From a bacterium (GTDB lineage: Bacteria > ARS69), in NCBI GenBank assembly GCA_025774805.1, contig JALGZR010000053.1, positions 1-38,995 on the forward strand: a DNA stretch of 38,995 nucleotides. The letters are read 5' to 3'. How positions within the stretch are numbered: position 1 is the stretch's first letter; each line of letters starts with the position of its first letter. The notes under the pieces are model-generated. The model saw only the letters and a program-made list of their open reading frames with translations, was not told the DNA's origin and searched no databases. Positions 20,736 through 38,569 of the stretch are shown here, in pieces. The position numbers were made by a program, and so were the translations under genes.

Positions 20736-20900
20736 TTTCTCACCAGTCTCTGCTGCGGCAGCGGCAGAGCCGCGCCCGGCTTCGTCGTTGCGGCGCTTCC
20801 GCCCTGCAACGGGGCTACGGCCGCGCCTCGGGCGAAAGCCCCCCATCTCCTCGCCAGACACGCCTGTCCGCGGCCTCGCGACGAGCCTCGTGAGAAATGC
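20736..20900. repeat. Dispersed palindromic element, copy d (longest)
   Basis: The left end TTTCTCACCAGTCTCTGCTG (20736-20755) and the right end CGAGCCTCGTGAGAAA (20882-20897) are imperfect inverted repeats about 165 bases apart. The interior holds the core CCGGCTTCGTCGTTGCGGCG (20776-20795), shared with copy a, with one base different. It sits between divergently transcribed genes and ends ~30 bases before the regulator promoter. No transposase is encoded inside, so a non-autonomous or REP-like element is likely. Confidence 0.7.
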
Positions 20901-20928
20901 GGGGTCGCGTGCCGATCTCCCCCGGCGC

Positions 20929-23484: not shown

Positions 23485-24678
23485 ATGGCCGATCCCCTGA
23501 TCTCCTCACACCCCGGGATCCTCGCGATCCTGGCCGGCATCGCCTCCTTCTTCTTCTGGCTCGAGCGGAAGACGCGCTGGAAGCTCTTCCACTTCTTCCC
23601 GCCTCTCCTTTTCATCTACATCTTGCCCGTCCTTCTCTCGAACTCGGGGGTGATCCCCACGCGATCCCCCGTCTACGATTTCATGGGGGCGAATCTCCTT
23701 CCGTTCTTCCTCACCGTAATGCTGCTGGAGGTCAATCTGCTGGCCACGGTGCGCGTGATGGGGAAGGGGCTCTTCGTCATGCTCCTGGGGACACTCGGCG
23801 TGGTGATCGGAGCACCTCTCGCGTTCGCCTGCGTGAACGCCGGGCTCGATCCGGGGGCGTGGAAGGCGTTCGGAGCTCTCGCGGGAAGCTGGATCGGCGG
23901 AACCGGGAACATGCTGGCGGTGGCCCAGATGGTGGAGCTCGACGATCACTCTCTCCAGTACGGGTATGCCGTGATCGCCGACAACGCCGTCTACCTCATC
24001 TGGCTGCCGATCATGCTCTCGTCGAAGAACTTCGCGGGGGTCTTCCATCGTTTCACGCGGGTTCCCGCCGAGCGGCTCGAGGAGCTCGAGGCCGCCGCCC
24101 GGAAGCTGACGAGCGACAAGGGCGTCCCCGAGTTGCGCCACTTCCTCTACCTGGCGTTTCTCGGATTCGTCGTGACCTGGATCGCGAGCTCGGCGGCCGG
24201 GCTGATTCCCTCGCTGCCCCTCGGATCCGAACAGCCGCTCGTCACCGCGAGCACCTACCGGATCCTGATCGTCACTCTCCTCGGGATCTCCCTGTCGTTC
24301 ACTCCCGCGAGTCGCATTCCCGGGTCCCACGCGCTCGCGATGGCTCTGGTCTACCTGTTCGTCGCGCGCATGGGAGCCAAGGCCGATCTGTCGGACGTGT
24401 CCGGGTCCGTGTTCTGGTTCCTGACCGGGGGCTATCTCTGGATCTTCATCCACGGTGCGTTCCTCGTGGGGGCGGCTCGACTCTTCCGCGTCGACGTCCA
24501 CACCGCGGCCATCGCGTCGGCGGCGAACATCGGGGGCGCCGCGTCCGCTCCGATCGTGGCGGCCTATCACCGCCCGACGCTCGTTCCGGTGGCGATCCTC
24601 ATGGCCATGATCGGTTACGCGATCGGGAACCCCGCCGCGTTCGGGGCGGCCCTGCTCTGCCGCTGGGTGGGGGGGTGA
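23485..24678 (+). CDS. DUF819 family integral membrane protein
   Basis: A 397-residue protein with about ten to eleven hydrophobic helices; GGGAG precedes ATG 23485. Family segments include FFPPLLFIYILPVLLSN, the glycine-rich GSWIGGTGNMLAVA, ADNAVYLIWLP, and the C-terminal ANIGGAASAPIVAAYH and GYAIGNPAAFGAA. DUF819 proteins resemble transporters of the anion/cation-proton type, but no substrate is established. A soluble loop at about residues 194-222 is encoded by the exact segment (24067-24150) that reappears at 31395-31478. The gene sits alone after the ahcY terminator and before a zone of gene remnants. Confidence 0.85.
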   Translation: MADPLISSHPGILAILAGIASFFFWLERKTRWKLFHFFPPLLFIYILPVLLSNSGVIPTRSPVYDFMGANLLPFFLTVMLLEVNLLATVRVMGKGLFVMLLGTLGVVIGAPLAFACVNAGLDPGAWKAFGALAGSWIGGTGNMLAVAQMVELDDHSLQYGYAVIADNAVYLIWLPIMLSSKNFAGVFHRFTRVPAERLEELEAAARKLTSDKGVPELRHFLYLAFLGFVVTWIASSAAGLIPSLPLGSEQPLVTASTYRILIVTLLGISLSFTPASRIPGSHALAMALVYLFVARMGAKADLSDVSGSVFWFLTGGYLWIFIHGAFLVGAARLFRVDVHTAAIASAANIGGAASAPIVAAYHRPTLVPVAILMAMIGYAIGNPAAFGAALLCRWVGG

Positions 24679-25322: not shown

Positions 25323-25814
25323 TTACTTCTCGTCGTCGTCCAGTTCTCTGAGAGCCTTGAGGGTATCCAGCGTGCTCTGCCCGCTGGCGATTCGTCTGAT
25401 CTCGTTCAGTCGCTCTTCGTCAGCCCGGAACTTCTTGCGCATCCGCGTCTCGTACGCCTCCAAAAGGGTCTCGAGGAGCTTGTCGATCTCGTACGGCTTC
25501 GGGAGGTAGCCGAAAGCCCCGAGCTTGGCTGCCTCCACGGCGCTTTCCAGGGCGCCATGGCCGGTCAGGATGATCACCTCGAGAAACCTGTGCTCCTCCT
25601 TGAGGATCTTGAGAAGCTGCATACCGTTCATGCCCGGCATCTTGAGATCCACGAGAGCCAGATCGAACTTGAAGGTACGAGCCAGTTCCAGGGCTTCCTC
25701 GCCGCTTGAAGCCGTGCCTACCTCCAGGCCGCGAATTGCCAACCGCGCTGCGATCGCGTCGAGAAACGGAGCCTCGTCATCAACAATCAGCAGACAGATC
25801 TTCCTCTCTTCCAT
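25323..25814 (-). CDS. Single-domain response regulator with helical C-terminal tail
   Basis: A 163-residue protein from ATG 25814 (GAGGGAG lies 8 bases upstream; a GTG three codons earlier would overlap that site). Residues 1-122 are a receiver domain with all key positions: D12/D13 acidic pocket, D56 phosphoacceptor in LALVDLKMPG, T84 in ILTGHG and K106 in LPKPYE. The remaining ~40 residues are charged and predicted helical, with no DNA-binding or enzyme domain. It is the last gene of a four-gene minus-strand operon, 34 bases after the receiver-transporter fusion, and is probably phosphorylated by the kinase at 28497-30221. The output is likely protein-protein contact or phosphate transfer. 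Confidence 0.9.
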   Translation of the reverse strand: MEERKICLLIVDDEAPFLDAIAARLAIRGLEVGTASSGEEALELARTFKFDLALVDLKMPGMNGMQLLKILKEEHRFLEVIILTGHGALESAVEAAKLGAFGYLPKPYEIDKLLETLLEAYETRMRKKFRADEERLNEIRRIASGQSTLDTLKALRELDDDEK

Positions 25815-25848
25815 GTCGATCACTCCCTCGAGGTCGGGTCCTGTCGCT

Positions 25849-27912
25849 TCACTCGACGGCCGGGAACCCGATCCAGCTCCAGTATCCCAGAAACGCCCAT
25901 AACCAGAGTACTAGTAAGGAGAGCGCCACGGCCACCATTCCGTGCTTCATGAAGTCCCTCAGCGTCACCAATTGTTCCCCGGTCCGAGGGTCCTTGGCCA
26001 TGGCATAGGCGATCGCGTTGTTGGGAGTTCCGATGATCAGCATGTGCGCGAATGATGACGCGAACGCGGTGGCAAAGCCGACCGTCCAGGGATGGACCCC
26101 CGCGAGCTTTGCCATGGGGACAGTGATCGGCCCAATGGCGGCGACGGTGGCGCCGTCGCTCATGAAGTTGGTGGTCAGCCCGGTGAACAGGCTTGCCGCC
26201 ATGGCCAGGCCCATCCCTTCCAGCATCGAGTCCGGAAGCAGGGAGACGAAGCCATCCGCCAGATACAGCGCCGCTCCCGTCACGGCAACGCCCTTCCCGA
26301 TGGCGCTGGCGGCCGCATAGAGGAACACCACCTCCCACGGAATCCGCACGATGTCCCTCCAGGACATCACGCGCAAGAGATTGAGCGCGACCAGGCCCAG
26401 AATCACCGGACCTCCCATACCCAGGGAATTGCAGGAGGTGATCCACAGCAGAATGACGGTGACCAAAACGGCCGCCGTTATGTACTCGTTCTTCGTCATC
26501 GGACCGATCCGTTCGGAGGCGTTGCGCACCGTGCGGGACACATCGAGCTTCTTCACACGGATCTTTCTGCGGAACACGAAGTAAAAGTACGTCCCCATGA
26601 CCACAGCCATGACAGGGACGTAGGGGAGCCCGTACTTGACCCACTGCCCGAACGAAGGTGCAACGCCGTAGTCTGCGAGAATGCCGATCATGACTGCGTT
26701 TCGCCCGCCGGCCGCCGGCGAACCGGGACCACCGATGTTGGCCACGAAGCAGACGGACAGCACGAAGAGGACCATCAACGGGCGGTCCTGCTTCAATCCC
26801 GTCCCGCGCAAGGTGGTTACGTAGACCATTACGAACAGCGGCATGAGGAATGCGATGAGGGCGTGCTCCGATACGAAGGAGCAGGCCACGGCGAGTCCCG
26901 GCAGGAAGAGGAACATCAACAAACCGAGGTTGCGCGCGGATCCCAACAGTAGAATCCCGAGGCGTCGGTCCAGGCCGGTCTTGGTGATCGCTCTGCTCAT
27001 GGCCAGCACGCCGAAGATGAAAATCACCGCGTCTTTAGCAAAGGCCTGGGCGATGTCGTCCGGGCGCAGGATGTTGCACAGATACATGCACGCGGCGACG
27101 AACAGGGCCGTTACCCCTACCGGGATCGCCCCCGACGCCCAGAACAACGCCGCCACCATCAGGACCCCAAGCATCACCTTCGCCCGGCGGGCGACCTCGT
27201 CGGGCGTGAGGCCACGCTCCACGGGGGTGCCGTCCCCGGAAGAGCTGGCCTTCTTCAGCTTGTACTTTCTGCTGTAGTGGTCCGGAATGGTGTCCCCTCG
27301 GTTCATGTTCATATAGTCCGCGTATCCGAAAATGGCATCGGGCATCCCGATCGCGGCGGCGGAGGATACAGACTTCGGGGCCGACAGCAGGTCGAGCAAC
27401 CGTTTCGGGGCCGGGCCGAGCAACAGCGCTGCCATCAGAAGCGCCCCGATCAGGATGAAGAGAGGTCTTGAATTGTGGCTGCCGAGGAGCCACGACGCGA
27501 ACGTCGTCGACTTCCGAACAGGGATCTCGTACCGCACCCTCGCGTGGACCGCCTGAGCACGCGCCTCGTCCACGGTCTCGAGCAGGCGGGCCAGGTCCAC
27601 CGGCTTCTCCATGTACCGGAACACATCCAAGCGGCCCGCCTCGGCCGCCGACTCGAGGCTACCGAAAGCCGTCAGCATGATCACCTGGACCTCCGGGCGG
27701 AACTCCTTGACGATCTTGAGCGTCTCCTCACCGCTCAGGCCCGGCATCTTGCGATCCAGCAGCATCACGTCGATCTCGAGATCGATACGGATCATCTTCA
27801 CGGCGTCGTCGCCGTTGGCCGCCTCCACAGTCTCGTGTCCCCGCAGGTTGAGCCGCCCCGCGAGTGACGACCGGAACTCGTGCTCGTCGTCGACGAGAAG
27901 GATCTTCGGCAT
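25849..27912 (-). CDS. Receiver domain fused to an SLC13/DASS-type membrane transporter
   Basis: A 687-residue fusion. Residues 1-120 are a receiver domain with D8/D9, phosphoacceptor D53 (MLLDRKMPG), T81 and K103 (MEKPVD). After a linker, residues ~150-680 form about twelve membrane helices resembling divalent-anion/sodium symporters (ArsB/NhaD-like superfamily). Conserved landmarks include FIFGVLAMSRAITKTGLDRR, the first ion-site loop CSFVSEHALIAFLMP, a second TNFMSDGATVAAIGP, and IIGTPNNAIAYAMA. The two SNT motifs that bind sodium and carboxylate in DASS carriers are replaced by SEH (348-350) and SDG (585-587), so ion or substrate use is probably altered. Phosphorylation of the receiver could gate transport or make this a transceptor. 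The gene lies between a CBS protein (8-base gap) and a receiver protein. Confidence 0.88.
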   Translation of the reverse strand: MPKILLVDDEHEFRSSLAGRLNLRGHETVEAANGDDAVKMIRIDLEIDVMLLDRKMPGLSGEETLKIVKEFRPEVQVIMLTAFGSLESAAEAGRLDVFRYMEKPVDLARLLETVDEARAQAVHARVRYEIPVRKSTTFASWLLGSHNSRPLFILIGALLMAALLLGPAPKRLLDLLSAPKSVSSAAAIGMPDAIFGYADYMNMNRGDTIPDHYSRKYKLKKASSSGDGTPVERGLTPDEVARRAKVMLGVLMVAALFWASGAIPVGVTALFVAACMYLCNILRPDDIAQAFAKDAVIFIFGVLAMSRAITKTGLDRRLGILLLGSARNLGLLMFLFLPGLAVACSFVSEHALIAFLMPLFVMVYVTTLRGTGLKQDRPLMVLFVLSVCFVANIGGPGSPAAGGRNAVMIGILADYGVAPSFGQWVKYGLPYVPVMAVVMGTYFYFVFRRKIRVKKLDVSRTVRNASERIGPMTKNEYITAAVLVTVILLWITSCNSLGMGGPVILGLVALNLLRVMSWRDIVRIPWEVVFLYAAASAIGKGVAVTGAALYLADGFVSLLPDSMLEGMGLAMAASLFTGLTTNFMSDGATVAAIGPITVPMAKLAGVHPWTVGFATAFASSFAHMLIIGTPNNAIAYAMAKDPRTGEQLVTLRDFMKHGMVAVALSLLVLWLWAFLGYWSWIGFPAVE

Positions 27913-27920
27913 CGGTCCTC

Positions 27921-28487
27921 CTAGGTGCCGTCGACGTCGTCGCCGGATTCGAGGATGTGATCGGAGAGGTGGTCGAAGATGTCGCTCAGGCGGAGCACAC
28001 CCACGACTACGTCGTCGTACCGGACCAGCAGGGACAGCGTCTGATGTTGCACCAGGAGCCGTATGGCGGCGACGAGCGGAATGTTGTGCTCGATCGAGAT
28101 GGCCTCCTGGGACGCTATGTCTCCAACCCGGATCGAGAGCGCGCGCTCGCGGATGTCCGAGAGGTGCCCATGCAGGAGCGCCAGGTTCTCCATGGTCTGA
28201 CGTGCGAGTTCTTCGCTCACCCAGGCCCGTTGCAGCATCGGAATCCGGAATTCCTTCTCGTGCCAGGGCAGCAGCGCGTCGAGGATCGCGAAGTGGTCGA
28301 TCTTCCCCACGAAGTTCCCCCCGGCGTCCCGCACCAGAATGGCGCGGTTGGGCTGTCGGCCGGGCGGCAGCTTTCGCTGGGCTTCCTGCAGCGCCTGCAG
28401 GGCCTGCGCGAGGGTATCGTTCTCACTGACGCTGGCATACTCCGACAGCGGGACCATCAAACCAACAATGGTTGTTATGGGTGACAT
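27921..28487 (-). CDS. CBS-domain pair protein
   Basis: A 188-residue protein with two CBS motifs, residues ~8-75 (SVSENDTLAQALQALQ...NRAILVRDAGGNFVGKID) and ~118-180 (AISIEHNIPLVAAIRLLV...VVVGVLRLSDIFDHL), separated by a helical linker. CBS pairs bind adenine nucleotides or SAM and regulate partner proteins, often transporters. ATG 28487 lies 9 bases after the kinase stop, and GAGG from the kinase 3' end can serve as its ribosome site; the transporter fusion starts 8 bases after its own stop. The spacing implies translational coupling and a role in regulating the transporter by energy charge (inference). Confidence 0.88.
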   Translation of the reverse strand: MSPITTIVGLMVPLSEYASVSENDTLAQALQALQEAQRKLPPGRQPNRAILVRDAGGNFVGKIDHFAILDALLPWHEKEFRIPMLQRAWVSEELARQTMENLALLHGHLSDIRERALSIRVGDIASQEAISIEHNIPLVAAIRLLVQHQTLSLLVRYDDVVVGVLRLSDIFDHLSDHILESGDDVDGT

Positions 28488-28496
28488 CGGAGTCCT

Positions 28497-30221
28497 CTAC
28501 TTGTCTTCGGCGGACCCGGCCCAGCCTTCCTTGCCCATGAACTGCCTGGTCGGAAGGTCAAACCGAAAGCGGCTTCCGACTCCCGGCTCGCTGTCCACGA
28601 AAAATTCGCCGCCGAGATTCTTGATGATGCTGAGGCTCACGGACAGTCCCAGTCCGGTGCCTTTGCTCGATGGCTTGGTCGTGAAGAAAGGAGTGAAGAC
28701 GTGCTCCATCTGCTCCGACGTCATTCCACATCCGGTGTCCCTGACGGAGACCGAGACACGTCCATCCCGGAGCCGAGTCTCGAGTGTGAGCTGTCCGCCG
28801 CCTTCCATGGCGTCTACCGCGTTCCGAATGAGATTGACAAGAACCTGCAGGATCTGGGCCCGGTCAGTGTGTACGGAGGGGAGATCCTCGCCGTAGCGCT
28901 TCACAACCTCGATGTGGGCTAGCGAGAGCTCGCGGCCGAGCAGGCCGTCCGCGGCTTCGTCCACGATTTCGTTGACATCGTGAGGGAGTATCTTGACCCC
29001 CCGCTGCCGCACGAAGCTCAACAACTTCTGCGTAATGTCTCGGCAGCGGAAGACCGCGGAGTGGGCGGCGTCCAGACGGCGGTTCAACTCTTCAGTGGTG
29101 AGTCTCCCCCCGAACTGCGGGTCCTGGAGATCCTTCATCATGCCGATTTCTTCAGCGATGATCGCCAGGGGGTTGTTGATCTCGTGAGCGATGCCCGCGG
29201 CAAGCTCTCCCACCGAGGCGAGCTTGGCTGCGTGCACGAGTTGACCCGATAGCTCGGCCTCGGCGCGATCGGTCTCTATGCGGGTCGTGGCCAGGAATCG
29301 GGCGCGAATCCAAAGGACGACTCCTGCGAACAAGAGCGCCGCGACGGTGAGTGCCACCATCAAGCGGTAGCCTGGATCCGACAGCATGGCGAGCCCGCTG
29401 CCGCTGGGGCTCGTGACCGCTAGCGTCCACGGTGCCATGTCCAGCCGGGCGTAAGCATACTCGACTCCCGCCCCGGCGCCGGAGGCCTCCACCACCCCGA
29501 CCGCGGGCTCCCGGGGAGGCACGAACGCAGACTGTTGCGGATGCTGGCCGCCCGAGTCCGGGGCGATCTGCAGGTACCCCTCCACGTTCACGACCACGAT
29601 CCGCTCACGCTCGCCGCTATCCGAAGGAACGATCTCTCCATAGAGCTTCGCGGGATCCAACGCTGACCGGAGGACGTAGCTGACGCCCTCGACATCCCGG
29701 CGCACGGCAACGGTGAAGTGAGGTTCATCGCGGAAGCCGAGATAGATGTCGGTCACGATGTGCTGTTGGTCGCTGGACAGAAGCTGCTCAAACCAGGGCT
29801 CGTCGCCGTAATTGACGGACTGCGGGAACTGGTGCGGCCCCACGTACATCCGGAGATTGCCAAGCTCGTCGAGCTGCCCCAGGTCCACGAACGCATCGCT
29901 CGTCGTTTGCAGCTGCTCGAGGGCTCTCTGAAGACGGGCCTGATCCGGGTCCGCCAGGTGGCCGGGATCGTCAATGACGTTGAACAGGTCGATCCATCGC
30001 TCGCGCAGGAAGAGGTCCAGGGTCGACGCGCGGTTCTCGGCTACGGTCGTCAGGTGTGCCAGGTGGCTCTCGCGCATCAACCGGCGGTACTGGAAGTGGA
30101 AGAACAGTGAGAGGAGCAGGAGGGGAGCGAAATACAGCAGGAAGACGCGGCGGAGCTCGCGACGAAGAACGGCCTTGTAGGTGGTGCCTTGAGGCGACGG
30201 CTTCCCTTTCGTGCTGTCCAT
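28497..30221 (-). CDS. Membrane sensor histidine kinase with extracytoplasmic Cache-like domain
   Basis: A 574-residue kinase from ATG 30221, chosen because GAGG lies 6 bases upstream; ATG or TTG codons at 30227-30257 are alternatives. TM1 spans about residues 26-44 and TM2 about 286-305, enclosing a ~240-residue extracytoplasmic sensor region of dCache type (FYDEPWF-like segment near 138-145, YVLRSALDP). A HisKA dimerisation domain follows with H346 in AGIAHEINNPLAII, then a HATPase_c domain with NLIRNAVDAM (N box), DTGCGM (G1), FTPFFTTK (F box) and GTGLGLS (G2). It heads the operon with the CBS protein, the receiver-transporter fusion and a receiver protein, so it probably phosphorylates both receivers. 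Its ligand is unknown; Cache domains usually bind small organic acids or amino acids. Confidence 0.92.
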   Translation of the reverse strand: MDSTKGKPSPQGTTYKAVLRRELRRVFLLYFAPLLLLSLFFHFQYRRLMRESHLAHLTTVAENRASTLDLFLRERWIDLFNVIDDPGHLADPDQARLQRALEQLQTTSDAFVDLGQLDELGNLRMYVGPHQFPQSVNYGDEPWFEQLLSSDQQHIVTDIYLGFRDEPHFTVAVRRDVEGVSYVLRSALDPAKLYGEIVPSDSGERERIVVVNVEGYLQIAPDSGGQHPQQSAFVPPREPAVGVVEASGAGAGVEYAYARLDMAPWTLAVTSPSGSGLAMLSDPGYRLMVALTVAALLFAGVVLWIRARFLATTRIETDRAEAELSGQLVHAAKLASVGELAAGIAHEINNPLAIIAEEIGMMKDLQDPQFGGRLTTEELNRRLDAAHSAVFRCRDITQKLLSFVRQRGVKILPHDVNEIVDEAADGLLGRELSLAHIEVVKRYGEDLPSVHTDRAQILQVLVNLIRNAVDAMEGGGQLTLETRLRDGRVSVSVRDTGCGMTSEQMEHVFTPFFTTKPSSKGTGLGLSVSLSIIKNLGGEFFVDSEPGVGSRFRFDLPTRQFMGKEGWAGSAEDK

Positions 30222-30307
30222 CGTCATCCTCGTCCCCGCACCAGGAACACCCATCAACCATTGGCCGCGCTGGATGGTTGGCCGCGGGGCACAGAAGACA
30301 TCTAGAC

Positions 30308-30339
30308 CACAAATGACGGCTGCCGCAAGTAGATTTGTG
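30308..30339. promoter_or_regulatory. Inverted repeat upstream of the kinase operon
   Basis: CACAAAT (30308-30314) and ATTTGTG (30333-30339) form a 7-bp perfect inverted repeat with an 18-base spacer, ~90 bases before the kinase start. The gap 30222-30551 contains no gene that I can support. The spacing fits a regulator dimer contacting two successive turns, or chance; evidence is limited to symmetry and position. Confidence 0.3.
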
Positions 30340-30551
30340 ACTTCTCGTCGGCCCGTCGCGGTGGGAGGTGGGCAGGAGTCGTCCCAGAGGCGCTCGGGAA
30401 GTCACGGGCCCGGAAGTCCGAGGAGCCCGCGCCGCGGACGTCGGGGGTATACTCCCATCAGCTGGGAGGGGGGGCGACCTCGACGGCAGCAAGACACCCC
30501 TCGTCAAGTGGCGGCCGCCCCCGCGGGAAGCCCACGACCGGGGAGGAGCTC

Positions 30552-31385
30552 ATGCGAGTCCCGCTTTCGCTGATTATCCTGCTCAGCATTGTGACCGCCG
30601 TCAACTTCGCCGTGGCAGCCGTCATCCACGTGCCGGGGGATCAGCCAACGATCCAGGCGGGCCTCGATGCCGCCGCACCAGGCGACGAGGTAGTGGTCGC
30701 CTGCGGTACCTACTACGAGCGAGACATTCTGCTCTCCTCGGGAGTCATCCTGCGCAGCGAGACTGGCGAACCGGGGTGCGTCACCGTCGACGCGAAGAAC
30801 CTCGGCCGCGGCTTCAGCGCCATCTCGCTCGCCGAGACGGCAACCGTCGAGGGCCTCACGGTCACGGGGGGCCGCATCACCGACAATTCCGAGGGTGGGG
30901 GGGGCTGTACTGCCTCTCCAGCGATCTCTCGATCCGCTACTGCGTATTCACCGGCAACTACGCCGCCTATCGCGGCGGGGGCGTCCAGATCGCTTCCTCG
31001 ATGGGCGAGATCAGAGACTGCATTTTCACGGAGAACGAAGGCGACGATGGGGGCGGCGGCGGGCTCGATTGCGGCAACTCTGACATCCTTGTCGCAGACT
31101 GCGTCTTCACCGACAACGTCGGCATCGATGGGGCCCGTATCTTCGTGAACCACTGCTCGCCGACGATCGAGCGCTGCCTGATCGCCCGCAACGATGCGAT
31201 CTTCTGGGGCGGCGGCATCGCGATCCACCACGAGGCCTCGCCGTTCGTCCGGCGCTGCACGATCGTCGGAAACGACGCCTACGAAGGCGGCGGCGCCTGG
31301 GTGGTCGCCAGCTCGAATCCCGTCTTTGAGGACTGTATCGTGGCCTTCAACGTCGACGGAACGGGTGTCTGGGCGGGACACCACG
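30552..31385 (+). pseudogene. Secreted right-handed parallel beta-helix protein, frameshifted and truncated
   Basis: ATG 30552 follows GGGGAGGAG and encodes a signal peptide (hydrophobic core residues 6-22, VTAVNFAVA) and the typical opening IHVPGDQPTIQAGLDAAAPG. Parallel beta-helix repeats follow (patterns such as VEGLTVTGG, RYCVFTGNYA, DCIFTENEG, ERCLIARN). The frame breaks at an eight-G run (30897-30904); restoring one base continues the repeats in another frame to about 31385. There the reading frame is replaced by an 84-bp copy of the DUF819 gene, so the rest of the gene, including its usual C-terminal end, is missing. Such proteins bind or cleave extracellular polysaccharide; this copy is probably inactive unless the G run slips. 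Confidence 0.65.
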
Positions 31386-31394
31386 GCCCACCCG

Positions 31395-31478
31395 GCCGAG
31401 CGGCTCGAGGAGCTCGAGGCCGCCGCCCGGAAGCTGACGAGCGACAAGGGCGTCCCCGAGTGGCGCCACTTCCTCTAC
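31395..31478 (+). repeat. 84-bp copy of an internal DUF819 gene segment
   Basis: Positions 31395-31478 match 24067-24150 with a single mismatch (TTG to TGG, changing Leu to Trp). The copy keeps the coding frame AERLEELEAAARKLTSDKGV over this stretch and diverges at both ends. It interrupts the beta-helix gene. The source lies 7.3 kb away on the same strand. An orphan downstream reading frame ends at 31532. Confidence 0.85.
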
Positions 31479-31690
31479 CGGTTCCTCGGGCTAGAGAGGC
31501 GCGACGCTCAGAAGACCCTATCCAGCCTGTGACCACACGAACGATCATGGCTTGGAGAGCCCGCCTCGCTGGACTCACTGCTGAGAAGGAGTCCGCCAGG
31601 AAAGCCGTTAGCAGAGCGACCCGATCCAACGATCCGCCATTTTGGAGACGGATCCTGGGGATGGTTCCCGCCACCGCATGTCAGGTGAGC

Positions 31691-31746
31691 CGAGCGACGG
31701 TTTCATAAACCGTTTGTCGGGTGTTCGAGTCACCCCGGGGGCGCCA
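31691..31746 (+). other. 3' half of a tRNA-Met (CAU), probable attachment site
   Basis: The sequence folds as the 3' part of a tRNA: anticodon stem ACGGT (31697-31701)/ACCGT (31709-31713) around loop TTCATAA (anticodon CAT), a 5-base variable loop, T stem GGGTG/CACCC around TTCGAGT, then a 7-base acceptor strand, discriminator G and encoded CCA. No matching acceptor 5' strand or D-stem 5' arm lies upstream, so it is not a complete gene. A lone tRNA 3' end beside recombinase sequence is what integration of a mobile element leaves behind. Confidence 0.7.
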
Positions 31747-31925
31747 CTCTCCCTTTCCGGCCGCGATCTCGGCGCAAGCCAAAAGGATGGGGACGTTACG
31801 GCGGCTCGATAATAATGCCCGTCGAAGGCGAGTCCCGCGGGAAAGATGGCCTGCTGGAGACGCACCTTCTTCGCGATGGGGAGCGACGCCCACAGCGCGC
31901 CGGGATCGCCCAGAATCTTCTCGGC
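31737..31925 (-). pseudogene. C-terminal fragment of a site-specific (probably serine) recombinase
   Basis: The minus strand reads AEKILGDPGALWASL, KKVRLQQAIFPAGLAFDG and YYRAAVTSPSFWLA. The block LQQ-x-x-FP-x-G-L-x-FDG is the signature tail of large serine recombinases. Only ~50-60 residues remain; the catalytic domain and start are absent, and the reading continues into the tRNA 3' half without its own stop. It marks a decayed integrative element whose attachment end is next to it. Confidence 0.5.
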
Positions 31926-32102
31926 GCCGCCGCCCCGTCCAGTCGGTGGGGGAAAGGGGAGTCGTGCTGGGATCCCCCCGATTCCGATCCGCTCGTCAAC
32001 GCAATTCCTACTGGATCGGGATACGGGGTCAAAATCACACGTTCCCCTGCCGTGGTACTTGCGGTACAATTCCGACCGTGGACGGCGGAGTCAGGAGCCG
32101 AA

Positions 32103-32339
32103 ATGAGGTTCCACGTCAGCGATCGAGCCAGGCAGGATGCTACGGAGTGCACGAGAGGATTCGCGTGTCTGTCAGGCAGTAGGAACGATCTCTGCAAGGT
32201 GACATGCTGCGTCGATTACGACACACTCTTCATCATATGCGCAGATGGAAAGAGTTGTCCTTACAGATGCAGAGTTCGGGGCAGAGTTTGCTGCAGTTGC
32301 CCCGTTCGCAAGGAGATATTCCACGGGTACAAGATGTGA
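32103..32339 (+). CDS. Small cysteine-rich protein, 78 residues, 11 cysteines
   Basis: ATG 32103 has AGGAG 5 bases before it, and TACAAT at 32065-32070 is a candidate -10 element. The protein has cysteines at 16, 22, 31, 35, 36, 46, 52, 56, 63, 64 and 66 and ends SCPVRKEIFHGYKM. There is no signal peptide or membrane helix, so it should be cytoplasmic, where this many cysteines points to metal, zinc or Fe-S binding or redox buffering. I do not recognise a named family. Its neighbours are a mobile-element scar and, 257 bases away on the opposite strand, the redox signalling operon, which suggests a link but does not prove one. Confidence 0.7.
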   Translation: MRFHVSDRARQDATECTRGFACLSGSRNDLCKVTCCVDYDTLFIICADGKSCPYRCRVRGRVCCSCPVRKEIFHGYKM

Positions 32340-32596
32340 GTGAGGTCGCTGCGGAGGCCTGTGGTTGAGCATGACCTGTCCAGAACATGTTGTGCCACTC
32401 CCAAAGTCAGACCAGCGGCGAGCTGGAGCGGTGGACCCTCCGCCCCGCCCCTGGGCAGTGGTGAACAAGCAGATCCGGCAATGACATGAATGGGCTGCCG
32501 GTAGAGCCTTCTCCCTCCGCCCTGGTTAGGACTGGTACGCAGGGACTACCTGTTGGACGTCAGTATCGTGGGAATGGCACGATGACCCTGGGCAGG
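32340..32596. other. Intergenic region without recognised features
   Basis: This gap lies between the ends of the convergent cysteine-rich gene and operon B. I see no long hairpin with a T run and no conserved reading frame in it. Confidence 0.4.
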
Positions 32597-33004
32597 TCAG
32601 TCGCTCGGCGCGGACCCGGCAAACAGGACCTTCAGCACGGAGAGCAACGTCTTTTGGTCTACCGGTTTGCCCAGCACGCCGTCGGGGCCCCGCACGCCGT
32701 GATGGGAACCCAGATAGGATTGGCAGTCGTCCTCGAGGATCTTGTCGTTCCCGGTGATCACCACCAGTGGGATGTCGCTCCACCGTGGGTCGCTGCGGAG
32801 GCCGACCAGCAGGTCGAGACCGGAGCGTCCCGGCATCAGCACATCGAGCAGCACGGCATCGGGGCGTGACCGGGCGACGGCCTCACGAGCGCTGGCCGAG
32901 TCGTTCGCCGCGGCCACCTCATAGCCGTTGTCCTCCAGGAACGACGACAGGTACGTCACGACGTCCGGGTCGTCGTCCACAACAAGGACCTTCTTGCCCT
33001 TCAT
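32597..33004 (-). CDS. Single-domain response regulator
   Basis: A 135-residue CheY-like receiver protein with D10/D11/D12, D54 (VLLDVLMPG), T84 (VITGND) and K113 (LGKPVD). ATG 33004 lies 3 bases after the stop of the PAS kinase, so the two are translationally coupled and almost certainly partners. There is no output domain; a short ~15-residue tail follows. It is the last gene of operon B. Confidence 0.93.
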   Translation of the reverse strand: MKGKKVLVVDDDPDVVTYLSSFLEDNGYEVAAANDSASAREAVARSRPDAVLLDVLMPGRSGLDLLVGLRSDPRWSDIPLVVITGNDKILEDDCQSYLGSHHGVRGPDGVLGKPVDQKTLLSVLKVLFAGSAPSD

Positions 33005-33007
33005 CCA

Positions 33008-34486
33008 TCACACCCTTGGCTTGGTGCTCGGCCGGGCATCCACCGGGAGCCGGATCACGAACCGGCTCCCTCGCCCCGGTTCCGATTCCACCTCGATGTC
33101 GCCCCCGTGCTTGTCCACGATCTTGTTCGCGATGAACAAACCGAGCCCGGTGCCCTTGATGCCCTTCGAAGAGAAGAACAGCGAGAAGATCTTCTCCTGA
33201 GTTTCGCGGTCCATGCCGATGCCGTTGTCACGGATGTCGAACACCACCCAGGGCTCCTCGCGCAGGACGCGGACGCTGACCTTCCCCTCCCGCTTTGGCC
33301 GCTTATTAACCGCACCGCAGGCCTCCACCGAGTTCTCCAGGACGTTGACGAGCATCGCACGGATCGCGTTGGAGTCTCCTTGAAAGGAACCGACATCCGG
33401 CGCGACCTCGACTTTCAACGCGATCTCCCCGTCGCCGGCCTTGCCGGCCAGGGTCTCCCGGACCTCCTCCATCAGCGGGCCTACCTCGATCTCGGCCAAC
33501 GTCAATTCGCGGTCCTTCGCGTAGTAGAGAATGTCGAGGACCATGCTGCGAATCCGGCCCACGTTGCGTTGGACCATCGCCCAGCCTTCCTCGACCCGAT
33601 CCGGCTTGTCCTTGGCGAAGCCGGTGTTTACCAGGTAGATCCCGCCGTCGAGACCGGTGAGCAGGCCCTTGATGCCGTGGGAGATCGATCCCACCAGCAG
33701 GCCGATGGAGGTGAGCTGGGATTGTAACTGGCGAATCTGGGTGATGTCCGTGGCCATCTCGATCACGGCCTCGATTTCGCCCTCGGCGTTGTGCACCGGT
33801 GAGGTCGTGCAGATCGCATTCATCTTCTCGCCGTCGGCGGTAATGAGGACCTCCTCGTGCTCCCGTGTTTCCCCGTCCTTTAGGGTCTGTACGGCAGGAC
33901 ATACGAGACACTGTTCGTCGCGATGCTTGTAGACACGGTAGCAGTACTGCCCCACCGAGGGTCCGAACGCCTCGCGGAATTTCCGGTTGGCGTGTTGGAT
34001 GACGAGGTCGGGGCCGTGCACCGCGATGTGGCACGGGACCTCCTCGAACAAGGTAGCTAAACGCCTCTCGCTGTCCCTAAGCAGTCCCTCCAGCCGTTTC
34101 ACCTCGCCGATGTCGGTGTGCATCTCCATCACGGCCTCGACCTCGCCACCTTCGTCGCGGATCGGCGTCGTGTGGACCATCACCGGCAGGCTCTCGCCCT
34201 CGCGAGTGGTCAGGGTCTGCTCGCTGCTGTGGGATTGACCGTCGGCGAAGGTCGCCTCTACGGGGCAGCTCGGGCATATCTCTTCACGCTGCTTGTAGAC
34301 GCGGTAGCAAAAATCGCCGATGCAGTCGCCGAAATCGGCCCGAAACCTGCGGTTGCCCTCGATGATGCGGAAGTCACGATCGTGGACGGAAAGATAGCAG
34401 GGCATTTCCTCCCAGTACTTCCGGTACGGGGCTGCGGCCGGCGATCTGCCGGTGTCAGCGGGGGAATTGACCGGATCGTCTGCCAT
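33008..34486 (-). CDS. Cytoplasmic histidine kinase with two four-cysteine PAS domains
   Basis: A 492-residue soluble kinase without membrane helices. PAS1 (~18-130) and PAS2 (~145-250) are clearly duplicated. Each has four cysteines at the same spacing: C30, C60, C71, C74 and C152, C182, C193, C196 (C-x29-C-x10-C-x2-C), in CYRVYK(Q/H)R contexts, with a further C55. That pattern suggests metal or Fe-S binding in each sensor. HisKA carries H270 in GSISHGIK, and HATPase_c has VLENSVEAC (N box), DNGIGMD, FSLFFSSKGIKGTGLGL and a final ESEPGRGSRF. It starts 13 bases after the HdrD-receiver fusion and is followed by a receiver gene after 3 bases. It probably phosphorylates both receivers in response to redox state (inference). 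Confidence 0.9.
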   Translation of the reverse strand: MADDPVNSPADTGRSPAAAPYRKYWEEMPCYLSVHDRDFRIIEGNRRFRADFGDCIGDFCYRVYKQREEICPSCPVEATFADGQSHSSEQTLTTREGESLPVMVHTTPIRDEGGEVEAVMEMHTDIGEVKRLEGLLRDSERRLATLFEEVPCHIAVHGPDLVIQHANRKFREAFGPSVGQYCYRVYKHRDEQCLVCPAVQTLKDGETREHEEVLITADGEKMNAICTTSPVHNAEGEIEAVIEMATDITQIRQLQSQLTSIGLLVGSISHGIKGLLTGLDGGIYLVNTGFAKDKPDRVEEGWAMVQRNVGRIRSMVLDILYYAKDRELTLAEIEVGPLMEEVRETLAGKAGDGEIALKVEVAPDVGSFQGDSNAIRAMLVNVLENSVEACGAVNKRPKREGKVSVRVLREEPWVVFDIRDNGIGMDRETQEKIFSLFFSSKGIKGTGLGLFIANKIVDKHGGDIEVESEPGRGSRFVIRLPVDARPSTKPRV

Positions 34487-34499
34487 CTTGGAGACCGCC

Positions 34500-36329
34500 C
34501 TATTTCTCTACTTCAAGTCCACCCTTTTGGTGCCGTTCCTCGACCTCGAGGATACGTCGGATATTGGCGATCAGTCGTTCCTCGTCCACCGGTTTGTCCA
34601 TGTAGCCCTCGGGTGGCCGGGCCGGCCGGTCGTAGATCAGGCTCCGGAACTCCGGATGGCCGGTGACGATGCAGACGGGGATCTCTTCGAGTCCATCGGT
34701 CCGTCGAAGCTCGCAGAAGGCATCGATGCCGTCCTTGCCGGGCATGGAAAGGTCTAGCGTGATGAGATCCGGCTTCTCGCGCGCCGCCACGGCGATGGCT
34801 TCGTCGCCGTCCGACGCCGTTATCACCTCAGCGCCCGCGTCCTCGAGCATCGTGGTGAGGAAGACCCTCACGTCTTCCTCGTCGTCGACGACCAGGATCC
34901 GGCGGCCCTGCAGTGCCGCTTCTCGCATCTCTTCCTCCTCGGCGGCCGGGGCCGCAGGAACGGCCTCGGCCGGGGCCGCGACCTCAACCGGCTCCTCTTC
35001 CACGGCCGGTTCCTCGAGAACCAGAGCGTCCGCCACCAGGTCGACGAGTTGCCTGACCTCGCAATCGATTTTGTAGTGCTTGATCAGGTCGCCCAGACCA
35101 TCGACACAGTTGTGGCAGGACGTGACGATGTACTTGGCCCCGGTGGCCGCGATCTCGTCGGCCTTGACCTTCCCCGACGCGAGTCGCCGGGGAGTGTACT
35201 CGGACATCGACATCGCGCCCCCACCGCCGGTGCAGCAGAGGCCTTCCAGGCGATTGTGCTCCAGCTCCTGGAAGTCATTGGTCACCACGTTGATCAGCTC
35301 GCGAGGCTCCTCGAAGAGCCCGCAGCTGCGAGCGTTGTTGCACGAGTCGTGGAACGTGTATCGCCCGGAGTTCTTCGACTTGTCGACCATGATGCGGCCC
35401 TCCCTGATGTAGCGCAACATGGTCACGACGGAGCTTTCCATGATGAAGGGGTTGTCGGCTCCCGACCAGTTGACCGCCTCGCACCGGGTCGAACGATATC
35501 CGTGACCGCACTCCGAGATCACCACGCGCTCGGCCCCGAGGTTCGCGGCGGATTCGTAGACCCGCTTCCCACAGGTGCCGCCGAGCAAGTCGTCACCTGA
35601 GAACAATCCGAAATTGGTTTGGTCCCAGCCGTCGCTGGTCATCGTCCAGTCCTCTCCCGCAGCGTAGAAGATCAGCGCAGCCTTCATGATCGTGCGCGGG
35701 TCGTACTTCACCTCGCGTGGATTGATGACGTAGACGATCTTGGCGCCCTTCTTGTCGATCGGGATCGCAGCCTTATTGTGGCCCAGGTCTTCCTCCAGCT
35801 CCTCGGACATCCACTCCAGCGTGTCGATGTAGTCCTCTTTCAAGACCCCCATCTGGTTGCCGATTTCCCATTGATCCTTGCTGACCACCCGCACGCCCTC
35901 GGGCATGACCCCCACGTGGGTGAGCAGACCGCGCATGATGCGATTCAGCGTCGCGGTGTCCACACCCATCGGGCAGTTGAAAGTACATCGACGACAGTTG
36001 GTGCACGTTCCGAACGCGATGTCCTTGAGCTTGTCGAGGTCGTCGTCGGTCAGCTGGCCGTTGGCCTTGACCCACCACGGGAAGACTCGTCCCGTCCAGT
36101 CGTGATTGCGCTTGAAGATCTTGCGGAGCTGATCCGCCTTGTAGCTGGGGGTCATTGTCGGGTCGTCGGGATGTGTCATGACGTAGTGGCACGAGTCGTT
36201 GCACATTCCGCAGTGGACGCAGCCCACCAGCGATGCGACGACCTGCCGGGTCAGCTTCTTCTGAAGCTGCTCTTCCATCATCCGGACTTTGCGGTCCCGG
36301 GTGTCCTTGGCCACGATCTCCTCCGTCAT
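34500..36329 (-). CDS. HdrD/DsrK-type Fe-S oxidoreductase fused to a C-terminal receiver domain
   Basis: A 609-residue fusion. Two [4Fe-4S] sites come first: C37-x2-C40-x2-C43-x3-C47 and C109-x2-C112-x2-C115-x3-C119. A first CCG-like domain (~195-290) lacks the full cysteine set. A second (~325-415) has the complete C330-x34-C365C366-x38-C405-x2-C408 signature of heterodisulfide reductase HdrD, DsrK and HmcF, which hold a special cluster acting on thiol-disulfide substrates. A Glu/Ala/Pro linker (438-468) leads to a receiver domain with D482/D483, D526 (LITLDLSMPG), T556 and K579. The start overlaps the cytochrome b gene stop as ATGA. With that membrane protein it resembles HdrDE or DsrMK electron-transfer pairs. 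Fusing a receiver to such an enzyme implies control by phosphorylation. Confidence 0.92.
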   Translation of the reverse strand: MTEEIVAKDTRDRKVRMMEEQLQKKLTRQVVASLVGCVHCGMCNDSCHYVMTHPDDPTMTPSYKADQLRKIFKRNHDWTGRVFPWWVKANGQLTDDDLDKLKDIAFGTCTNCRRCTFNCPMGVDTATLNRIMRGLLTHVGVMPEGVRVVSKDQWEIGNQMGVLKEDYIDTLEWMSEELEEDLGHNKAAIPIDKKGAKIVYVINPREVKYDPRTIMKAALIFYAAGEDWTMTSDGWDQTNFGLFSGDDLLGGTCGKRVYESAANLGAERVVISECGHGYRSTRCEAVNWSGADNPFIMESSVVTMLRYIREGRIMVDKSKNSGRYTFHDSCNNARSCGLFEEPRELINVVTNDFQELEHNRLEGLCCTGGGGAMSMSEYTPRRLASGKVKADEIAATGAKYIVTSCHNCVDGLGDLIKHYKIDCEVRQLVDLVADALVLEEPAVEEEPVEVAAPAEAVPAAPAAEEEEMREAALQGRRILVVDDEEDVRVFLTTMLEDAGAEVITASDGDEAIAVAAREKPDLITLDLSMPGKDGIDAFCELRRTDGLEEIPVCIVTGHPEFRSLIYDRPARPPEGYMDKPVDEERLIANIRRILEVEERHQKGGLEVEK

Positions 36330-37024
36330 GCCCTGGAGTAGGGGAAGCTACCCCTATGACCCAGAGCCTTGCCGATCCACCACCGCGAAAACGGGTAGTA
36401 CAAATAGTGCGAAATCTTCGAGAAGGGGACGTACAGCAAGAAAAAGCTGGTCAGCAGCAGGTAGGCCACCAGCCAGTTCTCGCTCGCAAACCGCGACGCG
36501 CCGGCGATGTGGGCCTGCGTCGCGACGCCCACGGCGAACCATACGGTGAGCATGATCAGCGAGAAGTAGTCGTCCGGAGAGCTGATCAGCCGCATCACCG
36601 GTCGGAACAGCCGGCGCAGCAAACGGTAGATGGCGACCAAAAAAGCGGCGGCGATCGTTCCGCCTACGATCCATGCGACCACTGGAATCTGCAGCGCGCC
36701 GGGGGCGATGGTGCTGACGAATGCCAATCCGATACCCGACACGACGCCGAGATGGAAGACGACAAAGCTGATCCAAAACGCAAACCCTTTGCCCGCCCTC
36801 GTGCTCTCCATGCTCCACGGCATGGCGACGTTGCCCAGCGAGTACATCCCACCCTTCCGGGCGTTGGTAAGCTCGGGTTGACCCGGCGCGGAGCGGTCCT
36901 TCGCTCCCTTGAACCTGAACAACCACCGAATTCGAAGGGCGTAGACGACCCCCATCACCACCAGGGCGGTCCAGTGGATCACCTCCACAGTCATCAGAAG
37001 AGCGCTTGGTTCGTCATGCGGCAT
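36326..37024 (-). CDS. Cytochrome b-like membrane subunit (NarI/DsrM/HdrE type)
   Basis: A 232-residue protein with about five membrane helices. ATG 37024 has AAGGGAG 9 bases upstream; GTG 37030, overlapping the macro-domain stop as GTGA, is an alternative. Histidines inside or next to helices (H19, H93, H174 and H208, counted from the GTG) can serve as heme b ligands; the first lies in EVIHWTALVV, the last in FSKISHYLYYPF, as in NarI-like proteins. It should pass electrons between the quinone pool and the Fe-S partner encoded immediately downstream (4-base overlap). It is short for DsrM and typical for NarI/TmcC-like subunits. Confidence 0.85.
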   Translation of the reverse strand: MPHDEPSALLMTVEVIHWTALVVMGVVYALRIRWLFRFKGAKDRSAPGQPELTNARKGGMYSLGNVAMPWSMESTRAGKGFAFWISFVVFHLGVVSGIGLAFVSTIAPGALQIPVVAWIVGGTIAAAFLVAIYRLLRRLFRPVMRLISSPDDYFSLIMLTVWFAVGVATQAHIAGASRFASENWLVAYLLLTSFFLLYVPFSKISHYLYYPFSRWWIGKALGHRGSFPYSRA

Positions 37025-37026
37025 CG

Positions 37027-37554
37027 TCACGCACTCCCTTCGATCTCTTTCTTGAATGGTTCGTACTCCCGCTCGTCCATGGTCACGAACAGAACCTCCT
37101 CGAGCGTCGTGGGGTTCTCGAGGTGTTTCGTGACGGTCTCCACCATCACGCGAGCGCAGAGGTCCATGGGCACCTGGTAAAGGCCCGTGCCGATGGGGGG
37201 AAAGGCGAGACGCTTGATGCCCTTCTCGTCGGCACGGCGCAACGCGTTCTCGGTGACGCTGCGGAGCTTCCCCTCCTCGTCCTCTTCCCTGAACTTTGGA
37301 CCGTTGACGTGGATTATGTAGGCCGCCTTGAGGATCCCCGCCTGGGTGACGACCGCCTCGCCCGTGGGGCAGCTACCGACCTCATCCAGCTCGTGCTGGA
37401 TCACGATGCCGCCACGGCGCTGGATCGCGCTGCCGAAGCCCGCGCCGAGCTTCATATCAGAGTCGATGTCGAAGACGAAAGCCTCGACATCCAGGGCGGT
37501 GAGATCCCCCCGTATCAGCCGAACGATCCGTTCGCCTATCCTCTGCTCGACCAT
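37027..37554 (-). CDS. Macro-domain protein with a divergent ADP-ribose loop
   Basis: A 175-residue protein, all one macro domain: GDLTALDVEAFVF, the GAGFGSAI loop, CPTGEAVVT, YIIHVNGP, and the phosphate-binding IAFPPIGTGLYQ-like segment (AFPPIGTGLY). These domains bind ADP-ribose or NAD derivatives and often remove ADP-ribose from proteins. The usual NAAN motif, whose Asn residues position substrate and water, reads FDIDSD here, so hydrolase activity is doubtful and binding alone may be the role. It lies between the Rrf2 regulator and the cytochrome b gene in operon B, which suggests sensing of NAD-derived signals (inference). Confidence 0.88.
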   Translation of the reverse strand: MVEQRIGERIVRLIRGDLTALDVEAFVFDIDSDMKLGAGFGSAIQRRGGIVIQHELDEVGSCPTGEAVVTQAGILKAAYIIHVNGPKFREEDEEGKLRSVTENALRRADEKGIKRLAFPPIGTGLYQVPMDLCARVMVETVTKHLENPTTLEEVLFVTMDEREYEPFKKEIEGSA

Positions 37555-38052
37555 TCCCTGTCTCCTCTCGGGCCCGATCGGGACCCCACACTGTCAGCAA
37601 ACGCCCCCCCCTCCGCGGGGGCGGCGCCGCCACGGTGAGCCCTGACCCAGTCCGCATCGAGCAGGTTCGCGAGCGTATTGCCCTGAAGGACCTCGACGAT
37701 CTGCTCGTTCATCACTCGGGAGATCATCCGGCTCTCGCAGTAGTCAGCGCGGGGACAGGAGGCCGGGTCGTCAACGCAGTCGACCAGGCAGGAGGGGCCG
37801 ATCAGGGCTTCGAAGATCCGGCCGACGGTGATCTCGTCGGTCGGAGCGGCCAGCTCGTGCCGTCCGCGGAGACCCGCCGCGAAGCAGACGCGCGGAGCGC
37901 AGCGAGAGCTCGACCTGCTCGAGATAGTCCTTGGAGATGTCGGTGCGCTTGGAGACGATGGTGAGGCCGACCGGATCGTCCTGGTCCGTGTGCCGGGCGA
38001 CCTCCAGCATCATCCGCGGGGCGTTAGGAGCACGCGTCAGAATTCGCATCAT
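37536..38052 (-). pseudogene. Rrf2-family transcription regulator with a frameshift
   Basis: ATG 38052 (AGGAAG ~10 bases upstream) opens an Rrf2 winged HTH: MRILTRAPNAPRMMLEVARH, then ISKDYLEQVELSLRSARLL. Near 37874-37883 the frame is lost. A second frame then continues exactly as Rrf2 proteins do: GRHELAAPTDEITVGRIFEA and a cysteine cluster C-x3-C-x6-C-x5-C (SCLVDC...SCPRADYC), likely Fe-S ligands, to a stop at 37536 that overlaps the macro gene. A two-base loss (GC in a CGCGCGG context) or one-base gain explains the break. It may be a true pseudogene or a sequencing error; intact, it would be an Fe-S sensor controlling operon B. Confidence 0.75.
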
Positions 38053-38074
38053 GCCGATGTCTTCCTACCGCTCC

Positions 38075-38103
38075 AAATTAGTCCCAATTCTCTTATCAGA
38101 CAA
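38075..38103 (-). promoter_or_regulatory. Predicted promoter of operon B
   Basis: On the minus strand TTGTCT (38103-38098), a 17-base spacer and TAATTT (38080-38075) form a sigma-70-like promoter, with a start near 38068 and a short leader before ATG 38052. The gap 38053-38239 is visibly more AT-rich than its neighbours and is shared with the divergent receiver gene. Confidence 0.55.
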
Positions 38104-38239
38104 GTAGGATCTTGTGGCCAGAGAATCCCATTTTTGGCAACATCCGTGGGGAGGGAATGACGACTCCTCGCGTTCCACGACCTCGATTGCCGGAGCCCCA
38201 GGTGATAGTGTTGGCTCAAGAGCGAGCTTGGAGAAATCA

Positions 38240-38569
38240 ATGAGCAGTCGCAGAGCCCTGATCATCGACGACGAACCCGATGTGGCGACCTACCTGGCTA
38301 CGCTGCTGTCGGACCACGGCTGGAACGTCCGGACGGCGCACGACGTGAACAAGGGACTCGAACTCGCGAGGGAAGAGATCCCGGACGTGGTGCTGCTCGA
38401 TCTGATGATGCCTGACCGAGGAGGCCTCAGTGCGCTGGTCGAGCTTCGTATCCGCAACTTCCTTGCACGATTCAAGTATCGGAAGGCGGATGCCTTCCTC
38501 GACAAGCCCGTGGAGCCGGACAAGTTACTCAAGACGGTGGACGAGCTCACTTCCCGGCGGACCGACTGA
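38240..38569 (+). CDS. Response regulator with an internal deletion
   Basis: A 109-residue receiver protein from ATG 38240 (GGAG 6 bases upstream), divergent from operon B. It keeps D10/D11, phosphoacceptor D54 (VVLLDLMMPD) and K89 (LDKPVE), but only 35 residues separate D54 from K89, against 50-59 in the other four receivers of this window. The missing stretch is strand 4, helix 4 and the conserved Thr/Ser that receives the phosphorylation signal. The frame stays open, so it may be a decayed or altered receiver. Its first 70 and last 35 residues are otherwise standard. Confidence 0.78.
   Translation: MSSRRALIIDDEPDVATYLATLLSDHGWNVRTAHDVNKGLELAREEIPDVVLLDLMMPDRGGLSALVELRIRNFLARFKYRKADAFLDKPVEPDKLLKTVDELTSRRTD

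Follow-up and report, generated by a model that had tools for sequence, protein, structure and literature searches.

Gene content of the locus

We analysed a 38,995-nucleotide stretch of DNA (hereafter, the window) from a bacterium of the GTDB lineage ARS69 (GenBank assembly GCA_025774805.1, contig JALGZR010000053.1). Between positions 25323 and 38569 it carries two gene sets, here named operon A and operon B, each combining a histidine kinase and a stand-alone receiver with an effector protein to which a further receiver domain is fused. The effector is a transporter of the DASS/SLC13 fold (Rec-DASS) in operon A and an iron-sulfur (Fe-S) subunit resembling HmcF, TmcB and DsrK in operon B. The features are as follows, with the support for each assignment.

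Operon A
25323..25823, minus strand: RRa, stand-alone receiver (Pfam Response_reg, 102 bits)
25849..27912, minus strand: Rec-DASS, N-terminal receiver (aa 4-114) and DASS/SLC13-fold transporter (Pfam)
27921..28487, minus strand: CBS-domain protein (Pfam CBS)
28497..30257, minus strand: HKa, membrane histidine kinase with a periplasmic dCache domain (Pfam HisKA/HATPase)

Operon B
32597..33004, minus strand: RRb, single-domain receiver of the DVU0259 class (best NCBIfam match NF045717)
33008..34486, minus strand: HKb, soluble PAS-PAS histidine kinase (Pfam)
34500..36329, minus strand: HmcF/TmcB/DsrK-like Fe-S subunit with a C-terminal receiver, aa 478-590 (Pfam, NCBIfam)
36326..37030, minus strand: NarI/HmcE/TmcC-like membrane cytochrome b subunit (NCBIfam)
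37027..37554, minus strand: macro-domain protein (Pfam Macro, 99 bits)

Between and beside the operons
31670-31746: tRNA-Met, between operons A and B
37771..38052, minus strand: Rrf2-family regulator, N-terminal part, frame-broken (Pfam Rrf2, 22.8 bits)
38114..38569, plus strand: RRc, divergent receiver of the DVU0259 class, at the periphery of operon B

Operon A runs from 30257 down to 25323 in the order HKa, CBS, Rec-DASS and RRa, with gaps of 9, 8 and 25 bp, and operon B from 37554 down to 32597 in the order macro, NarI-like, Fe-S–receiver, HKb and RRb, with gaps of −4, −4, 13 and 3 bp. A 2.3-kb gap with the tRNA-Met gene and decayed fragments splits the two; no terminators above chance were found between them, and no Rfam elements were found within the window. 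Five of the 61 receiver matches in the genome fall in these 13.2 kb, where approximately 0.16 would be expected (Poisson 7e-7, a figure that ignores operon clustering). An earlier prediction, made from the sequence of the window alone (the original prediction), had counted two kinases and five receivers here, none with a DNA-binding output, with which Pfam agrees. Its statement that two of the receivers are fused to effectors also holds, the partners being Na_sulph_symp/DASS and CCG/4Fe-4S regions and the phospho-acceptor Asp and the Lys being intact in both receivers. The accessory genes that it listed stood in part, i.e., Pfam recovers the CBS and macro domains, but the Rrf2 gene has a frame break, and the proposed cysteine-rich small protein, for which neither Pfam nor the related loci yielded a match, looks like a spurious open reading frame close to tRNA-Met.

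The two operons beside known complexes

Operon B is a deeply conserved module of uncultured bacteria from many phyla. Scanning one genome per species identified 118 relatives of the Fe-S–receiver protein, and the counts of loci given here rest on the best 80 of the 118, which align over approximately full length, receiver included, at 52–76% identity. These are labelled as Acidobacteria, Zixibacteria, Myxococcota, Planctomycetota, Deltaproteobacteria, Calditrichaeota, Elusimicrobia, Ignavibacteria, Poribacteria and others, and all save one (an assembled bin) are labelled as metagenome-assembled genomes (MAGs). The NarI-like gene lies immediately upstream of the Fe-S–receiver gene in 77/77 loci with enough sequence and the HKb gene immediately downstream in 65 of 68, while the macro gene, of the ADP-ribose-binding type, stands ahead of the membrane subunit in 73 of the 74 loci with room. 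Many loci also have a separate RRb, and an Rrf2 gene lies upstream in 16 of the 63 with room.

Cluster-binding and phosphorelay residues are retained. Invariant cysteines in the Fe-S subunit form two 4Fe-4S sites (C37/40/43/47 and C109/112/115/119) and one CCG (CCX~38CXXC) cluster site (C330, C365/366, C405/408), and in its receiver, which a disordered linker precedes in the structural model (approximately aa 445-470), the Asp pair D482/D483, the phospho-acceptor D526 and K579 are likewise invariant among the relatives. Histidines H93 and H208 of the NarI-like subunit are found in 100% of 87 sequences. The phospho-accepting H270 of HKb is present in 100% of 73 relatives, and 93-96% of these keep the cysteine triads of both PAS domains (C60/C71/C74 and C152/C182/C193/C196); RRb keeps the acidic pair, the phospho-Asp, the Thr/Ser and the Lys. 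Separately, excisionase/BldC-type helix-turn-helix (HTH) genes were seen near operon B in 19 loci (e.g., L027 7931-8731 and 13246-14115), some of whose products have a Cys-rich middle and a C-terminal degenerate DVU0259-like receiver and are possibly an unusual redox transcription factor.

Judged by its sequences, operon B belongs with the Hmc/Tmc/DsrMK complexes, as a variant with a fused receiver. Its Fe-S part scores 306 bits against HmcF (cut-off 750), 296 against TmcB (cut-off 735) and 249 against DsrK (cut-off 400); filing it under any of these names was rejected since no curated model attains its cut-off, and HdrD was also tried and rejected. Pfam does not match the NarI-like subunit, which is placed by NCBIfam, where it reaches 55 bits for HmcE (cut-off 275) and 38 for TmcC (cut-off 240), whilst the fused Fe-S receiver, RRb and RRc all have NF045717 (the DVU0259 family) as best match, below its 160-bit cut-off. 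PDB sequences gave only weak matches to the Fe-S core, one of them at E 3e-11, and receiver structures swamped its fold search. DVU0259 itself adjoins tmc in Desulfovibrio vulgaris. The likeness to Hmc and Tmc comprises the Fe-S subunit, the adjacent HmcE/TmcC-like membrane subunit and receivers of the DVU0259 class, but operon B has neither a periplasmic multihaem cytochrome c (HmcA/TmcA) nor NrfD/HmcB-D genes, its Fe-S subunit carries a receiver as part of the same protein, and a macro gene is nearly always there. DsrMK(JOP) is the menaquinone–DsrC electron-transfer complex, and operon B shares with it the two-subunit DsrM/K-like layout, the 4Fe-4S/CCG sites and the linkage to dsrAB/dsrC, often adjoining canonical dsrMK; unlike DsrMK(JOP), it is without JOP, carries a receiver and forms a clade separate from canonical DsrK. 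Kinases, response regulators and Usp have been described as neighbours of hmc/tmc loci (PMC5109826, PMC4162548, PMC10924467), and in Desulfovibrio hydrothermalis CheY-like and UspA genes adjoin hmcF/hmcE and change together with them (PMC4162548).

When 21 canonical DsrK-type paralogues of the same loci were included in a tree, the Fe-S–receiver family came out as a single clade. The receiver-less Acidobacteriota homologues fall inside it, and as three receiver-bearing sequences branch deeper (support 0.948, moderate), loss of the receiver is suggested. Two split relatives (L181 and L182) have a stand-alone receiver gene directly after the same Fe-S gene, and these receivers cluster with the fused ones (support 0.82/1.0), away from RRb and RRc; such a split/fused (Rosetta stone) pair implies functional contact between receiver and Fe-S enzyme. 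In five Acidobacteriota loci from genomes with no dsrA match (L150-L153 and L155), a receiver-less Fe-S relative was seen with a NarI-like partner and a dsrC-like gene, a set that may be DsrMK–DsrC-like in genomes with no dsrAB match.

Operon A is conserved as well, with full-length Rec-DASS orthologues (52-65% identity) in 22 of 50 operon-B genomes, and the order kinase–(CBS)–Rec-DASS–receiver is retained in nearly all Rec-DASS loci, the CBS gene lying between kinase and transporter in most. The Rec-DASS model (pLDDT 82) matches NaS1, NaCT and VcINDY in Foldseek (E 1e-16 to 1e-14), and the sequence scores 182.6 bits against TIGR00785 (cut-off 198.6). While fold and sequence place it with VcINDY/NaS1, it differs from them by its N-terminal receiver, in which the phospho-acceptor Asp and conserved Lys are invariant in relatives, by one additional transmembrane (TM) helix between receiver and transporter, and by the replacement of both SNT motifs, aligned in VcINDY, with SEH (348-350) and SDG (585-587) in 27/27 orthologues, so that its substrate cannot be assumed. 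HKa has two TM helices, a 100% conserved H358 and a dCache_1 match below the Pfam cut-off, and RRa, which has no DNA-binding domain, ends in a conserved C-terminal tail of approximately 45 aa. Tandem DASS arrays with extra kinases and bare receivers adjoin the receiver–DASS operon in L131, L136, L137 and L146.

A sulfate-uptake cluster described in Desulfobacteraceae consists of DASS, cache-type kinases, CBS and response regulators (PMC11887813). Operon A has the same set of DASS, cache kinase, CBS and response regulators, also in dsr+ genomes, and on this likeness is a receiver-fused variant of that cluster; the cluster has WalR-type DNA-binding regulators, whereas operon A has a transporter-fused receiver and a bare receiver. 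The available part of the description makes no mention of a receiver–transporter fusion, and the terms 'receiver', 'two-component' and 'fused' are absent from a 2018 survey of sulfate transporters (PMC5840216).

Association with dsr genes and the case for phospho-control

Both operons track dsrA. Among 132 genomes of Zixibacteria (phylum of G019), dsrA was found in 27 of 31 with operon B (11.7 expected; Fisher p 1e-10) and in 31 of 34 with Rec-DASS (12.9 expected; p 7e-14), and among 396 genomes of Acidobacteriota (phylum of G043) in 11/11 with operon B (0.86 expected; p 1e-13) and 7/7 with Rec-DASS (0.55 expected; p 9e-9), p-values which overstate significance because the genomes are related, though the signal recurs in independent groups. 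The receiver-less Acidobacteriota homologues come from eight genomes, none of which has dsrA, whilst 43 of 50 operon-B genomes across phyla do. Dsr genes lie in the flanks of 25 of the 80 operon-B loci (dsrC near in some only), and at L031 operon B sits within a dsrAB–dsrN–dsrL–dsrC … dsrMK–dsrO–dsrP cluster, named by sequence and Pfam. The genome of the window carries dsrA on another contig (C105), and four members of its family without either operon are also without dsrA. From these associations the two operons are best seen as belonging to dissimilatory sulfur metabolism, reductive or oxidative, and the gene order of operon B clearly marks uncultured lineages with dsr genes (Zixibacteria, Acidobacteriota and others). 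No sat/apr signature peptides were found on the searched parts of C105. Two similar receiver and kinase cassettes flank the dsr cluster of that contig (L013 3375-5845 and L014 16021-18029), which has seven receiver matches in 85 kb.

We propose that the operons are two independent phosphorelay-controlled modules of sulfur metabolism with direct phospho-control of both effectors, a reading to which we give an even chance. For its central element, i.e., that in many phyla the flow of electrons between quinone pool and sulfite-reduction machinery is gated by phosphorylation of the receiver in the HmcF/DsrK-like subunit, we put the chance a little below even. The proposal builds on what comparison yields directly, namely the genes, their fusions, intact phospho-sites, operon conservation, dsr linkage and the split/fused relationship, from which we infer a direction of electron flow, substrates, signals and an effect of phosphorylation on activity. 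In operon B, a complex of HmcEF/TmcBC/DsrMK type would move electrons between menaquinone, reached through its NarI-like subunit with haem b, and a thiol/disulfide partner in the cytoplasm that is probably DsrC-like. HKb would read redox or thiol state, likely via its PAS cysteine triads, and phosphorylate the receiver tethered to the Fe-S subunit, which would then set the rate at which that subunit passes electrons; RRb may compete as a second output or phosphate sink, and Rrf2 may govern expression in some lineages. In operon A, HKa would sense a periplasmic anion and phosphorylate RRa and the receiver of Rec-DASS, an importer whose cargo is probably a sulfur oxyanion, and with the CBS protein reporting adenylate/energy status anion uptake would be gated post-translationally. 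A receiver that directly activates an enzyme has a precedent in EpsW-EpsZ (PMC12802240), which is alike in that the proposed target of the phosphorylated receiver is an enzyme and not DNA, and unlike in that here the receivers are covalently fused to their targets, one a redox complex and the other a transporter. Several points weigh against this proposal, in addition to the relatedness of the genomes. The kinase–receiver pairing is read only from receiver class and the order of genes, the model, in which the fused receiver sits on a disordered linker, gives no sign of allostery, the chemistry can do without a receiver since receiver-less homologues still make NarI-like and Fe-S pairs, and the loss of both SNT motifs makes sulfate transport by Rec-DASS uncertain.

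The original prediction had seen a single 13-kb system; on such a reading, cross-talk of HKa and HKb over both operons would coordinate transport and electron flow. The operons are adjacent in the window, and they co-occur above chance (18 Zixibacteria genomes vs 8 expected, five in Acidobacteriota vs 0.19); within dsrA+ genomes, however, little of this is left, with the association absent in Zixibacteria (16 vs 16.7 expected) and weak in Acidobacteriota (5 vs 2.5; p 0.04), such that co-occurrence is essentially explained by both operons tracking dsrA. No locus holding both operons was found outside the window, the receivers of A and B fall in two different classes and the kinase H-boxes differ too. 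We therefore rejected the single regulatory island, which is very improbable, and the operons are best regarded as two modules that serve a single metabolism, neighbours here by happenstance, whose common theme is dissimilatory sulfur metabolism rather than the energy, NAD or redox status first suggested. There is also only a slim chance that the link to dsr reflects shared lifestyle or ancestry, with operon B serving another anaerobic quinone-linked process. Seven of the 50 operon-B genomes have no dsrA match, among them two related groundwater MAGs with both operons, which counts against the main proposal as well as for this alternative, and the receiver-less homologues of the eight dsrA-less Acidobacteriota genomes also favour the alternative; but dsr genes are physically linked to the operon, with dsrC or dsrMK adjacent, and the association is independent in two phyla and present in the cross-phylum set.

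Other explanations concern what the fused receiver does. It might be an input or docking device that ties HKb to the redox complex, electron load partitioning phosphate to RRb as the real output. The linker leaves room for such a role, its flexibility and the many loci with a separate RRb fit it, and HKb, as a soluble kinase whose PAS domains carry cysteines, could read the complex; yet in the fused receiver the phospho-acceptor residues do not vary, and RRb has no known output domain or partner, and we regard this explanation as unlikely. That the receiver works on expression alone, through a partner and with the fusion as a tether, is quite improbable. Rrf1/Rrf2 are reported to regulate hmc expression (PMC10924467), and Rrf2 upstream in some loci and HTH genes near others would suit a similar arrangement, but no receiver in the window has a DNA-binding domain, and being fused to so large a subunit of an Fe-S enzyme would suit a transcription factor poorly.

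Discussion of how dissimilatory sulfur metabolism is controlled usually centres on transcription. The recurrence of both fusions in dsr-bearing genomes suggests that this metabolism is tuned at the protein level, beyond gene switching, and the conserved fusions of receivers to a catalytic-type Fe-S subunit and an anion importer make phospho-control of sulfur respiration directly testable, with the receiver-less relatives of dsrA-less Acidobacteriota and the split-gene relatives as natural controls. The post-translational control of membrane electron flow and transport first proposed for the locus is likely, but not as one shared system. Its supposed novelty divides likewise, as no paper describing the Fe-S–receiver fusion module was found in the open-access literature searched, whereas the transporter half resembles the published sulfate-uptake cluster (PMC11887813). 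Both operons are real, widespread and apparently undescribed variants of known systems, and do not make up a system of a wholly new category.

Damaged genes and repeats around the operons

The Rrf2 gene, read from 38052 downward, has a frame break near 37,880, and its C-terminal half, including the Cys motif, sits in a different frame; a comparison of frames found the gene intact in relatives. RRc is shorter than its relatives by approximately 24 residues, which in the alignment take in beta-4 with the conserved Thr.

A second copy of operon A was seen on contig C149 of the same genome (L012 8409-11487), its DNA 81-83% identical. Its receiver–DASS gene is missing a clean 849-bp internal stretch (equivalent to window 26556-27404), and the copy could stem from decay of a paralogue, from a related strain or from faulty assembly. 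Fragments of the gene for a DUF819 membrane protein (23485-24678) are repeated, with 95-99% identity, at window 24064-24151 and 31392-31479 and at L014 18037-18310, i.e., beside tRNA-Met and on contig C105, which suggests that the DNA was recently rearranged or was misassembled. A repeat of approximately 165 bp (window 20738-20903) has 87-90% identical copies in L012 and L014, and so occurs on three contigs of the genome. Outside both operons, the window also holds a tandem duplication of approximately 2.4 kb at 69% identity (2076-4448 and 4749-7121).

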